DNA of 64,000 nt from Chryseobacterium aquifrigidense (GTDB taxonomy: Bacteria; Bacteroidota; Bacteroidia; Flavobacteriales; Weeksellaceae): positions 334,760 through 398,759 of the forward strand of contig NZ_VFPD01000001.1 in the NCBI RefSeq assembly GCF_006716485.1. Direction: 5' to 3'. A program made the position numbers and the translations under genes. This document shows, in pieces, positions 16,387 through 60,600 of this stretch (its first letter is position 1; every line of letters starts with the position of its first letter). The notes under the pieces are model-generated. The model was not told the DNA's origin and did no database searches. It saw nothing but the letters and a program-made list of their open reading frames with translations.

Positions 16387-16932
16387 ATGAAAAAATATAA
16401 TGAAAAAACAGAAGTTCTTGAGAAGATAGCCGACAGCATTACCTCATGGATAGGATCTATTCAGTCCCTGATTGTCCATACATTGCTGTTCGTTACTTCG
16501 TTTTTACTTCCGATGCTGGATATCGTTGATTTTGATAAAATGCTTCTTATTCTGACTACGGTACTTTCTCTGGAAGCTATTTATCTTGCGATCTTCATTC
16601 AGATGTCTGTGAATAAAAGCCACGAGAAAATTGAAGATATTCAGGAGGATATTGAGGAGATCAGTGAAGATATCGAAGATATTCAGGAAGATCTTGAAGA
16701 AATCAGCGAAGACATTGAAGAGATCAACGAAGATATAGAAGATATCCAGGAAGATATTGAGGAAATCAACGAAGACGAAGATGAAGAAGATCATAATGAA
16801 AGAGCAAAAAATGTAATACTCAAAAGCAATGTAAGCTCGAACAAAAACGAAATAAAAGCCTTAAAAGATATTATCTCTCAGTTGCAGAATGAAATAGACC
16901 AGTTGAAAAAAGATGATAAAGAACCGGAATAA
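16387..16932 (+). CDS. DUF1003-like membrane protein with a perfect heptad coiled coil
   Basis: This 181-residue protein has two membrane segments (about 25-47 and 54-76) whose sequence, ending LSLEAIYLAIFIQMSVNK, resembles the DUF1003 membrane hairpin. It is followed by eight near-identical seven-residue units of the type EDIEDIQ/EDIEEIS (about 82-135), then a charged stretch and a second helical part. The heptads place Ile or Leu at regular positions and Asp/Glu elsewhere, so a long, very acidic coiled coil is predicted. The gene is 11 nt after TIGR02757 and ends in a terminator. Function is unknown. Confidence 0.65.
   Translation: MKKYNEKTEVLEKIADSITSWIGSIQSLIVHTLLFVTSFLLPMLDIVDFDKMLLILTTVLSLEAIYLAIFIQMSVNKSHEKIEDIQEDIEEISEDIEDIQEDLEEISEDIEEINEDIEDIQEDIEEINEDEDEEDHNERAKNVILKSNVSSNKNEIKALKDIISQLQNEIDQLKKDDKEPE
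16630..16788 (+). repeat. Internal 21-bp tandem repeats encoding the heptads
   Basis: About seven degenerate 21-bp units of the form GAAGATATTGAAGAxATC follow one another, with third-position changes between units. They encode the acidic heptads of the surrounding gene. Confidence 0.75.
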
Positions 16933-50200: not shown

Positions 50201-50269
50201 TATTAATAAAATAAAATGTTAAAGCTAAGCAACTTACACGTTCTTCGTCAGAGGTTGAATAACAGGTTG

Positions 50270-55334: not shown

Positions 55335-56036
55335 ATGATAGATAAAAGAGTAAAAAATGCAAAGGAGGCCATCGAAGGAATTAATGATGGAATGACACTG
55401 ATGCTTGGCGGATTCGGACTTTGCGGAATCCCTGAAAACTCAATCAATGCTTTGGTAGAAAGCGATGTGAAAGATCTTACTTGTATTTCAAACAATGCAG
55501 GTGTGGATGATTTCGGATTAGGATTACTGCTTCACAAAAGACAGATTAAAAAAATGATCTCTTCCTATGTAGGAGAAAATGCTGAATTTGAAAGACAGAT
55601 GCTTTCAGGTGAATTGGATGTAGAACTTACTCCTCAGGGAACCTTAGCGGAAAAATGCAGAGCTGCTCAGGCTGGAATTCCTGCTTTTTACACTCCTGCA
55701 GGCTACGGAACTGAAGTAGCAGAAGGGAAAGAAGTAAAAGAATTCAAAGGAAAACCTCATATTCTGGAGCATGCTTACGATGCAGACTTTTCTATCGTAA
55801 AAGCATGGAAAGGTGATCATGCAGGAAATCTTATCTTCAAGGGATCTGCAAGAAACTTCAATCACCCAATGGCAGGTGCTGCAAAGATTACCATTGCTGA
55901 AGTAGAAGAATTGGTAGAACCGGGACAATTGGATCCGAATGAAATTCATATTCCGGGAATCATGATTCAAAGAATTTTCCAGGGAGAAAAATTTGAAAAA
56001 AGAATTGAACAGAGAACTGTAAGAACTAAAGAATAA
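55335..56036 (+). CDS. 3-oxoacid CoA-transferase subunit A
   Basis: Subunit A of a heterodimeric SCOT-type enzyme, which moves CoA from succinyl-CoA to acetoacetate (or related 3-oxoacids) in ketone-body use. The 233-residue protein shows [15 protein letters not shown] (22-36), [12 protein letters not shown], the [11 protein letters not shown] region and the C-terminal [11 protein letters not shown]. The partner subunit B is not adjacent: it lies at 58014, beyond an ABC transporter gene on the opposite strand. A strong bidirectional terminator follows, so the two subunits must be transcribed separately. Confidence 0.93.
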
Positions 56037-58013: not shown

Positions 58014-58667
58014 ATGCTTACAAAAGAACAAATTGCCAAAAGAATTTCAAAAGAACTGAAAGATCGTTATTATGTAAACCTGGGAATTGGGATTCCTACT
58101 TTGGTTGCCAACTATGTTCCGGAAGGTATTTCCGTAGAATTCCAGAGTGAAAATGGAGTTTTGGGAATGGGACCTTTCCCTTTCGAAGGAGAAGAAGATG
58201 CGGATATCATTAATGCCGGAAAACAGACTATTACTATTCTGGAAGGAGGCTCATTCTTTGATTCTGCCTTTAGTTTCGGGATGATCCGTGGTCAGAAAGT
58301 AGACCTTACTATCCTTGGAGCAATGGAAGTTTCAGAAAACGGAGATATTGCCAACTGGAAAATTCCGGGAAAAATGGTAAAAGGAATGGGAGGTGCAATG
58401 GACCTTGTAGCTTCTGCTGAAAATATAATCGTTGCTATGATGCACGTGAACAAGGCAGGAGAAAGCAAAATCCTTAAGAAATGTACACTTCCTCTAACAG
58501 GAGTAAACTGTGTGAAAAAAGTAGTTACTGAACTAGCTGTTCTGGATGTAACTCCGGCAGGTTTTAAGCTGGTAGAAAGAGCACCAGGCGTTTCAGTAGA
58601 AGAGATTATTAAAGCTACAGAAGCAGATCTGATCATTGAAGGAGAAATTCCTGAAATGCAGTTCTAA
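58014..58667 (+). CDS. 3-oxoacid CoA-transferase subunit B
   Basis: The 217-residue catalytic subunit carries VNLGIGIPTLVANYVP (21-36) and the active-site glutamate in QSENGVLG (Glu46). Later conserved blocks are GMIRGQKVDLTILGAMEVS and KMVKGMGGAMDLV, then HVNKAGESKILKKCTLPLTG. It pairs with subunit A at 55335-56036 despite the intervening gene. The start is the ATG 124 nt after the divergent ABC gene start. It ends in a very stable terminator. Confidence 0.94.
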   Translation: MLTKEQIAKRISKELKDRYYVNLGIGIPTLVANYVPEGISVEFQSENGVLGMGPFPFEGEEDADIINAGKQTITILEGGSFFDSAFSFGMIRGQKVDLTILGAMEVSENGDIANWKIPGKMVKGMGGAMDLVASAENIIVAMMHVNKAGESKILKKCTLPLTGVNCVKKVVTELAVLDVTPAGFKLVERAPGVSVEEIIKATEADLIIEGEIPEMQF

Positions 58668-58683
58668 TCTGATGATCAATATA

Positions 58684-58722
58684 AAAAGTTTCGGCCTCAC
58701 AAAGTGAGGCCGAAACTTTTAT
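58684..58722 (+). terminator. Terminator of CoA-transferase B
   Basis: A perfect 17-bp stem (58684-58700 with 58704-58720) with loop AAA. Confidence 0.92.
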
Positions 58723-58739
58723 AAAACATAGCAAATAAA

Positions 58740-58931
58740 CCGACATAGGAACCCGGAGCGTTAAAAAAATAAGTCCTGTGAACGTTAAAAAAATTCTCCT
58801 GTCCGAAGCGCGAGACAAAATCAGAACCAATTAAGCAATAATAATTTCGCGCAAGTTTAGAATTTTTAGAGAACAGGAATTATTTTTAGCGAAGAGGTCC
58901 AGGTCTTGAACTTTTGTTTTAAGACAAAAAA
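58740..58931 (+). repeat. Tandem unit R1
   Basis: Shortest core: about 10 bases within the final CTTTTGTTTC stretch are missing, but the complementary GTCTTGAA and TTTAAGAC are kept. The 5' part has the AGCGTTAAAAAAATAA variant and the 3' part has ACAGGAATTA. Confidence 0.85.
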
Positions 58932-58985
58932 CAATGCCTTTGTTCATTTATACTCAAACAAATATTTATACAAATGAGTTTAAAA

Positions 58986-59190
58986 CCGACATAGGAACTC
59001 GCAGCGTCAAAAAAATAAATCCTGAGAACGTTAAGAAAATTCTCCTGTCCGAAGCGCGAGACAAATTCAGAACCGATTAAGCAATAATGATTTCGCGCAA
59101 GTTTAGAATTTTTAGAGAACAGAACTTATTTTTAGCGGAGAGATCCAAGTCTTGAACTTTTGTTTCTTTTGTTTCAAGACAAAAGAAATT
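58986..59190 (+). repeat. Tandem unit R2
   Basis: The 5' part has the AGCGTCAAAAAAATAA variant with CCTGAGAACG; the 3' part has ACAGAACTTA. Confidence 0.85.
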
Positions 59191-59258
59191 AAAACAGTAA
59201 CAAAACAGAGCCCTTGTCATGTATGCTCAGACAAATAGTTCTATAGATACCTTTCACC

Positions 59259-59463
59259 CCGACATCGGAACTTGGAGCGTTAAAAAAATAATTTCTGTGA
59301 ACGTTAAGAAAATTCTCCTGTCCGAAGCGCGAGACAAATTCAGAACCGATTAAGCAATAATGATTTCGCGCAAGTTTAGAATTTTTAGAGAACAGAACTT
59401 ATTTTTAGCGGAGAGATCCAAGTCTTGAACTTTTGTTTCTTTTGTTTCAAGACAAAAGAAATT
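59259..59463 (+). repeat. Tandem unit R3
   Basis: The 5' part has the AGCGTTAAAAAAATAA variant with CTGTGAACG, like R1. From about 59308 to the end it is nearly identical to R2. Confidence 0.85.
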
Positions 59464-59527
59464 AACACATAAAAAAACACTGTTATTATCATTTAGGCCA
59501 GACAAATAGTTCTATAGCTGACTTTAA

Positions 59528-59732
59528 ACGACATCGGAACTCGCAGCGTCAAAAAAATAACTCCTGAGAACGTTAAAAAAATTCTCCTGTCCGAAGCGCG
59601 AGACAAACTTAGAACTGATTAAGAAATAATGAATTCGCGTAAGTTTAGAATTTTTAGAGAACAGGAATTATTTTTAGCGGAGAGATCCAGGTCTTGAACT
59701 TTTGTTTCTTTTGTTTCAAGACAAAAGAAATT
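59528..59732 (+). repeat. Tandem unit R4
   Basis: The 5' part matches R2 (AGCGTCAAAAAAATAA, CCTGAGAACG). The 3' part has ACAGGAATTA and CCAGGTCTTG as in R1. Several private changes lie in the middle. Confidence 0.85.
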
Positions 59733-59735
59733 ATA

Positions 59736-59766
59736 GCAAAAAAGCTGTTTCATCATGAAACAGCTT
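59736..59766 (-). terminator. Terminator of the DUF4197 gene
   Basis: An 11-bp stem (59742-59752 with 59756-59766) is preceded by an A-run, giving a U-tract on the minus-strand transcript. Confidence 0.82.
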
Positions 59767-59790: not shown

Positions 59791-60600
59791 TTATTTCCCA
59801 TCCTGAGCTCCAAACACCTTTTGCAGAATACTCGTAGTCCTCATAGCAGGCGTATTCCTGATTCCGCTTTCTTTATCGGCAACCATTTTGAAAACACCGT
59901 TGATGGTTTCTGTAGTGACATATTCGTTAAGATCAGTAGTTACAGCTTGTCCGGTAAACGTATTATATTTTGAAATCAGATTTTTCCAAAGGGTGTCAGC
60001 ACCTACTTTACCTAAAGAAGCTTTTACTTTGGGCTGAAAGGCATTAAACAGCTGAGTCTGGGTTTTTCCCTGCAGATAACTTGTTGCAGCATTGTTACTG
60101 CCTAACAGGATGTTTTTGGCATCTGTAATCGTCATAGAAGTAATAGCATTTGTAAAAATAGGTGCAGCTTCTGTTACGGCATCTTCGGCAGCTCTGTTCA
60201 GTAATTTCACCCCTTCATCAGCAAGGCTTCCCATTCCGATGGAACGTAGCGTTGTATCGATCTTTCTTAATTTTTCAGGCATTAAAATCTTTACTGCTTC
60301 ATTTTTGAAGAAGCCATCGGTGACCGCCAGTTTTTTTACACCATCTGTTACTCCCATAGTTAAAGCTTCTTTTAATCCTGAAGAAATCTGACTGGAAGTA
60401 AGGTTTCCAATATTGGCAGATGAATTGCCTGAGGTGGTAGTGGTTGTCTTGGTAGAAGTTATTGTACCATTATTTTTTACTGGAACATTAAGATCTACAC
60501 CAGTTTTATCTTTAACAGCAGATTTTATAATATCAAAAATTTGTGCCTGAGCTGATAAAGAAAATAATAAAGCGGCTGCCAGAAAAATGTTTTTTTTCAT
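59791..60600 (-). CDS. DUF4197 family secreted protein
   Basis: The 269-residue protein has a signal peptide (1-19, ending LSAQA) and a Ser/Thr-rich linker (TSTKTTTTTSGNSSAN). The DUF4197 domain (about 65-265) contains SSGLKEALTMGVTDGVKKLA, FFKNEAVKILMPEKLRKI, MNRAAEDAV-like LNRAAEDAVTEAAPIFTNAI and DAKNILLGSNNAATSYLQ. DUF4197 is all-helical, periplasmic or outer-membrane in other groups, with unknown function. The gene is monocistronic. Confidence 0.88.
   Translation of the reverse strand: MKKNIFLAAALLFSLSAQAQIFDIIKSAVKDKTGVDLNVPVKNNGTITSTKTTTTTSGNSSANIGNLTSSQISSGLKEALTMGVTDGVKKLAVTDGFFKNEAVKILMPEKLRKIDTTLRSIGMGSLADEGVKLLNRAAEDAVTEAAPIFTNAITSMTITDAKNILLGSNNAATSYLQGKTQTQLFNAFQPKVKASLGKVGADTLWKNLISKYNTFTGQAVTTDLNEYVTTETINGVFKMVADKESGIRNTPAMRTTSILQKVFGAQDGK

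Follow-up and report, generated by a model that had tools for sequence, protein, structure and literature searches.

Known intergenic repeats and the array at scoB

The ERIC (IRU) sequences of enterobacteria are intergenic imperfect palindromes of ~100-200 nt which occur as many single copies and have a mobile origin. To our knowledge, few intergenic RNA repeats have been described in the bacterial class of the present host, although bacteria of this class abound in gut, soil, and water. The REP/BIME elements associated with RAYT are described as palindromic, extragenic sequences of 20-40 bp tagged with GTAG and CGTC, and mRNA stabilisation is given there as one hypothesised role (PMC3733652).

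The window analyzed here, a stretch of 64,000 nt, contains four direct repeat copies which occupy ~1 kb and separate scoB from a convergent DUF4197 gene. The features of this region are:

58014..58667, plus strand: scoB-type CoA-transferase subunit gene, upstream of the array (Pfam CoA_trans, 157.4 bits)
58684..58720, plus strand: terminator-like hairpin of scoB, preceding R1 (perfect 17-nt arms, loop of 3 nt)
58741..58934, plus strand: repeat copy R1 (model R1, 199.5 bits)
58987..59189, plus strand: repeat copy R2 (model R1, 233.2 bits)
59260..59462, plus strand: repeat copy R3 (model R1, 237.4 bits)
59529..59731, plus strand: repeat copy R4 (model R1, 230.4 bits)
59742..59766, minus strand: terminator-like hairpin of the DUF4197 gene, after R4 (read from the sequence; presumed terminator)
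59791..60600, minus strand: convergent DUF4197 gene (Pfam DUF4197, 249.6 bits)

The original prediction of a four-copy tandem array was confirmed by comparison with a reference copy (four 261-nt copies, 73, 100, 91, and 82% identical to it, at spacings of 246, 273, and 269), by TRF (period 273 nt, score 1233) and by the covariance-model boundaries, which gave unit lengths of 194, 203, 203, and 203 nt for R1 to R4 and gaps of 52, 70, and 66 nt. The 3' hairpin of R1 is shortened. A single mechanical ORF of at least 60 aa touches the array (65 aa, 58633-58830, minus strand). Elsewhere in the window, a 21-bp tandem repeat of ~7 copies was observed at 16630-16775, and an opposite-strand ABC transporter gene lies between the CoA-transferase subunit genes at 55335-56036 and 58014-58667.

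No Rfam family (release 15) reached the gathering threshold in the array, so a known RNA family was rejected as its identity. The sole hit in the window was the L19-Flavobacteria ribosomal protein leader at 50230-50257 (minus strand, 35 bits), outside the array. The best sub-threshold hit, BTnc231 (27.9 versus 80.4 bits), spans the 3' portion of R4 together with the adjoining terminator-like hairpin. The repeat thus resembles the Rfam families in having a covarying structure and differs in that none of them is found at threshold in the array.

As in elements of the ERIC/REP type, the copies are dispersed, non-coding, palindromic, and intergenic. With ERIC, compared by its generally known features rather than by sequence, the repeat shares the size class, the intergenic imperfect palindrome, the dispersed single copies and the mobile origin, but it differs in showing no visible target duplication, in its sense orientation, in locus clades at two sites, in its 3' hairpin and in its tandem arrays. 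Like REP/BIME it is palindromic and extragenic. However, its model length of ~203 nt compares with 20-40 bp, in agreement with the earlier judgement that the unit is too large for a REP, and across 16 genomes its occurrence did not correlate with that of Y1 transposases; short CGTC-containing inserts sit within some of the copies. With MITEs it has in common non-coding, dispersed, and precise units, whereas no target duplication was seen, no parent transposon is known and an inverted end hairpin was seen at one locus pair alone (L290/L291). None of the titles listed by our literature search describes this repeat family, although coverage of subscription papers was limited and an earlier description is possible. 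The kind of element, an interspersed structured intergenic repeat, is already known; this one differs in that it combines spread throughout the class and tandem arrays with a sense orientation and with constraint at a fixed locus.

Distribution of the repeat

In its own genome, the repeat was found at 12 places by DNA search and at 13 by the covariance model, the four of the array included. Within the genus, 90 of 98 genomes gave a DNA match; the copy numbers are lower bounds because just 8 candidates were scored per genome. The covariance model detected the repeat in 146 of the 197 genomes sampled from the taxonomic family (24 of 33 genera) and, with E up to 1e-4, in 76 of 295 genomes of the class (51 of 155 genera), few candidates being scored per genome and stricter filters applied in both searches. 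Eight genomes had 9 to 30 matches each, and four equal-scoring copies were found in G538. A pattern scan of named genomes returned 30 stretches, 28 from Chryseobacterium, one from Cloacibacterium rupense and one from a Flavobacteriales bacterium. Outside the taxonomic family, copies were read in G101, where by eye the architecture is retained and the sequence clearly diverged. Beyond the class, the search covered one exact pattern as well as plasmid, phage, and viral collections: R3 had no blastn match in the plasmid and phage collections, and one exact 23-letter pattern was absent from viral contigs. A phage or plasmid origin was rejected on these grounds.

Predicted structure and covariation

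A total of 59 distinct near-full copies were extracted, 38 of which were aligned without structure (A1). A second alignment (A3) of 116 copies, taken from nine genomes, was made by fitting to the model, a procedure that favours the model's pairs, and a third (A4) comprised the argC-argD copies described below (30 of 31 clade members, L344 being dropped as close to L343). The unit starts with YGACNTAGGA and ends in a hairpin near ...TCAAGACAAAAGAA. It is predicted to form a six-helix rod, with the 3' hairpin as a seventh helix; the apical stem-loop is missing from some copies. Two motifs of the form C[GUUAA]R across from U[A]G are present, and both read GTTAA in the consensus of A1 and A3. In R3 they are located at:

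59279..59283, plus strand: internal-loop module 1, unpaired GTTAA (C[GUUAA]R across from U[A]G; identified by eye on the aligned copies and their structure)
59303..59307, plus strand: internal-loop module 2, unpaired GTTAA (by eye; conserved in the A1 and A3 consensus)

In A1, 97.1% of the cells were paired and 23 of 50 pairs showed double changes, and none of 500 shuffles was as high; for slid partners, the paired fraction was 38.5-58.1%. A3 showed changes on both sides in 43 of 50 pairs and a covariation score of 0.453, compared with 0.145 for shuffled and at most 0.113 for slid alignments. Double changes occurred in 13 of 47 predicted pairs of A4. Within the array, one helix-4 pair is C-G in R1 and R4, U-A in R3 and a C.A mismatch in R2. 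The dispersed copies and the strong covariation among them bear out the structured non-coding family that had been proposed. Two findings had been named as speaking against that proposal, the absence of both a transcript and covariation across many copies, and an origin of the core as a fragment of a known IS. As far as the searches made here extend, neither occurred: covariation is strong, and no relation to an IS surfaced.

The complementary segments noticed earlier could be placed in this structure. GCGCGA and TCGCGC form helix 6, and GTCTTGAA and TTCAAGAC were located in the 3' hairpin region. The third pair held in part: ACAGGA is confined to R1 and R4 (R2 and R3 have ACAGAA), but the proposed partner TCCTGT differs by copy. 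In the covariation-supported structure the partner is TCCTGT in R1, TCCTGA in R2 and R4, and TTCTGT in R3, which gives full pairing in R1 and R3, one mismatch in R4 and two in R2.

Two types of insert were observed within copies. A short CGTC-containing insert (TGACTACGTCGAATCTTCGATT-like), resembling a nested REP, is located in the 3' hairpin loop in L016, L024, L025, L396, L401, and L405. A second insert of ~30-60 nt (TTCGCCGATTCC...ATGAGGC-like) occurs at varying points of the copies in L281, L285, L286, L253, L267, and L293.

Strand and orientation

On the plus strand, G.U cells outnumbered A.C cells by 357 to 34 in A3 (154 to 29 without three G.U-rich pairs) and by 112 to 12 in A1 (24 to 12 without them), an excess that is favoured by the underlying structures, since these came from programs accepting G.U and not A.C. 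The MFE z-scores of 60 copies were indistinguishable between strands (-3.77 on the plus and -3.82 on the minus strand). In the array they were (plus/minus) -2.10/-2.34 for R1, -0.73/-1.72 for R2, -1.85/-1.77 for R3, and -1.58/-2.93 for R4, i.e., lower on the minus strand in three copies and within 0.1 in R3. Folding energy gives no strand assignment, and the strand claim is therefore based on pair counts and orientation. The plus strand as the functional strand is supported, with a caveat.

The genomic context was counted for 85 clusters in nine genomes, with genes predicted by a home-made ORF scorer and the array studied here not included. The orientations of the 5' and 3' neighbour genes relative to the repeat were (+,+) in 43, (+,-) in 23, (-,-) in 10, and (-,+) in 8 clusters; one cluster had no 5' gene, and the 5' gene was antisense in 18 of 84. 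Only the co-directional gaps are informative for orientation. Here, 43 sense contrasted with 10 antisense clusters (p 6e-6), and 37 with 10 after hand removal of six loci that recurred between genomes (p 1e-4). Convergent and divergent gaps numbered 23 and 8 (p 0.01). A separate, redundant count of other loci gave (+,+) 44, (+,-) 46, (-,-) 13, and (-,+) 1, with eight rows lacking one neighbour. Both the sense orientation and the paired changes speak for a role as a single strand, most simply as RNA.

Retention at fixed loci

Between scoB and DUF4197, a match was found in 47 of 96 loci of the genus, and every match listed lies in the scoB direction; DUF4197 was not located in 12 of the 96 fetched stretches. 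Near-full copies numbered one at 27 loci, two at 7, three at 4, and four at 2, so that 13 of 96 have two to four, and fragments alone were found at 7. Amplification of the non-coding element in place, as had been suggested, is probable; the number of near-full copies at scoB varies from 0 to 4. Similar elements had been taken to occur singly and not in tandem. Single copies are indeed dispersed in relatives, but arrays were found as well: both forms occur at the scoB loci of the genus, and other tandem clusters include five and six copies at non-scoB sites in G022 and G019 and seven copies in G264.

A second locus is the gap between argC and argD. The argC gene is present in 86 genomes and the gap was examined in 70, of which 46 contained a match. 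Near-full copies were found in 41 gaps, all of them sense, and fragments alone in five; L366 contains one further short reverse fragment. In G196, a genome of another genus, the repeat likewise lies between argC and argD. A match was absent from 24 of the 68 gaps with argD adjacent, and together with the five of 46 matches that are fragments, this indicates that the repeat is dispensable or replaceable. The repeat-less gaps (L346-L350, L352, L354, L356, L358, L360, L362, L363, L365, L367, L369, and L370) are filled by other sequence, several with a hairpin-like GGGAACTCGAAACTCGAATCCC-type stretch. Since the repeat-less gaps that were read at scoB and argC-argD hold other sequence, no clean pre-insertion site was found among them.

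A tree was calculated from 119 copies, in which 40 of the 41 extracted argC-argD copies were entered (two L400 copies shared a single name). Of these, 31 formed one pure clade (0.97) and nine fell outside. All six copies at a TROVE-like locus formed one clade (0.998), whereas the largest pure scoB clade contained 29 of 59 copies (0.705), and neither the three ilvA copies nor the two from the Crp locus clustered together. The copies outside their locus clades indicate that gene conversion or re-insertion occurs, which may partly mimic constraint. At the TROVE-like locus, the conserved copy lies downstream of the gene in L298, L294, L235, and L190, with small variable genes intervening in some species.

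Across bins of argD divergence, the copies of the argC-argD clade were 0.85-0.90 identical, whereas identity was 0.54-0.58 in the 5' spacer and 0.50-0.63 in the 3' spacer; argD third positions of same-residue codons were 0.58-0.83 identical, and unrelated 80-nt flanks averaged 0.58. The spacers are visibly alike between nearest relatives, so that the low averages derive from more distant pairs. With the repeat 85-90% identical and the spacers averaging 50-63%, the argC-argD copies look kept and constrained as structures, to which gene conversion may contribute. Covariation and constraint at a fixed locus, as expected of a cis RNA element, were thus found together at argC-argD.

Dispersal and alternative explanations

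In G132, two copies are 98% identical and have sharp ends, whereas their flanks are 0.50 and 0.60 identical, which demonstrates a precise recent dispersal in one genome; no target duplication was visible by eye in these or the other flanks printed. Copies at different loci of G022 have flank identities up to 0.93, suggesting that larger segments also spread there. G101 contains two locus pairs with common stretches of 362 and 368 bp. The 368-bp unit common to L290 and L291 opens with an inverted copy of the 3' hairpin, and the full mobile unit there may be larger. Y1 transposases (PF01797) were detected in 15 of 16 genomes, i.e., in all eight carriers and in seven of the eight genomes without a DNA match to the repeat, and mobilisation by RAYT was rejected for lack of correlation. 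Also rejected was a TnpB-like guide RNA: a TnpB-like gene precedes an array in one genome, but the two did not track each other over 96 genomes. The TnpB-like protein was found in 23 of the 96, was missing from carriers including G022, G004, and G002, and was present in G031, where repeat matches were just weak or partial. This 364-aa putative TnpB/Cas12-like protein (G000:C1:2944894-2945985, L284:324-1418) is one open frame in most of the 23 genomes. Its only Pfam match is Cas12f1-like_TNB (residues 343-362, E 0.086), and the protein ends just inside this domain; it is possibly a nuclease-dead relative.

In an alternative explanation, the repeats are non-autonomous mobile elements (MITE-like or single-strand hairpin elements), folded for recognition by a transposase that works on one strand of the DNA, and reside in the genome without host function. 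The precise unit with sharp ends, the 9 to 30 matches per genome and the inverted hairpin at L290/L291 would fit, and the tolerance of G.U holds for single-stranded DNA too. We nevertheless consider this rather unlikely: target duplications were not seen, Y1 transposases are nearly as common without the repeat, plasmid, phage, and viral collections gave no match, and the argC-argD copies remain constrained. Mobility accounts for spread, not for retention, and both can hold in sequence if the repeat was mobile and then retained. In a second alternative, each copy would be an independent small RNA gene, with its own promoter and a start at the conserved YGAC end. The sharp 5' end, the 3' hairpin and the arrays agree with this. 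In 156 non-redundant upstream flanks, which are T-rich at -21 to -16, have A at -3 and -2 and otherwise carry no signal, the promoter-like TAnnTTT occurred at -20 to -8 in 14, and TTG-N16-23-TAnnTTT in 6, matching the maximum among 200 shuffles (mean 1.5), so that a subset of copies may have promoters. However, the TAnnTTT count lies within the shuffles (mean 9, maximum 18), no T-run follows the 3' hairpin by eye and the sense bias relative to the upstream gene is left unexplained. A promoter and terminator per copy were thus not found for the family as a whole, and independent genes appear improbable; of the small RNA family originally suggested, the structured RNA is favoured and the independent genes are less supported.

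The array had also been proposed as a protein-binding site. The copies would then be double-stranded DNA binding or nucleoid sites, and their pairing would reflect inverted binding half-sites. The conserved repeated motif CGTTAAGAAA of the consensus and the arrays would fit. Changes on both sides of most pairs and an excess of G.U over A.C are unexpected for duplex DNA, and this reading is very improbable. The paired changes might instead have been produced without selection. Long imperfect palindromes are prone to template-switch correction in replication, and L062, L064, and a copy in the own genome which lack the palindrome centre are consistent with such events. Against this, the copies read retain the asymmetric internal loops (altered in G101) and the argC-argD spacers diverge more than the repeat. 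Palindrome correction is in our view the least probable of these explanations.

Proposed role of the repeat

The repeat is best read as an RNA element of mobile origin that acts in cis, within a 3'-UTR or between cistrons. Constraint on the structure at a fixed locus and an orientation matching the upstream gene make an RNA role at the 3' end or between cistrons the simplest. We propose, tentatively and with slightly less than even confidence, that the array consists of class-wide non-coding repeats, each with a predicted rod and 3' hairpin, which act as the RNA part of the upstream message and protect or punctuate it. Transcripts reading through the scoB terminator would enter the array; as a terminator-like hairpin precedes the array, this read-through would need to be substantial. 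Each unit would then fold into the rod, in which C[GUUAA]R/U[A]G forms two identical internal loops. Their repetition suggests a protein partner, which probably binds at both loops and which, with the 3' hairpin, might block 3'-to-5' decay or set a processing point. Such an effect on decay or processing is proposed by analogy with REP elements, and copy number could tune it. The repeat would spread now and then as a precise unit of ~200 nt, selection could keep it once placed, as the measurements at argC-argD suggest, and arrays would probably grow and shrink through local duplication.

The gene upstream of the conserved copy at the TROVE-like locus is one that we take to encode a TROVE (Ro60-like) protein. 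Possibly, a specific RNA-binding protein recognizes the repeat, for which this protein, whose own gene carries a copy, is a candidate. The idea of a Y RNA, which arose from this assignment, was set aside. In a bolder version, which we regard as doubtful, the repeats would be uncatalogued, class-wide mobile 3'-UTR RNA modules domesticated at chosen genes, with two docking loops each and a tandem number that tunes scoB-like output.

The post-transcriptional rules of the host group are little known. A structured repeat family detected in 146 of the 197 genomes sampled from the taxonomic family, with copies that lie between arginine genes and beside a CoA-transferase gene, offers a handle on 3'-end control in these bacteria. 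Moreover, because dispersal and constraint at a fixed locus are visible in one family, the old question of whether ERIC/REP-like repeats are parasites or regulatory parts of the host becomes testable.
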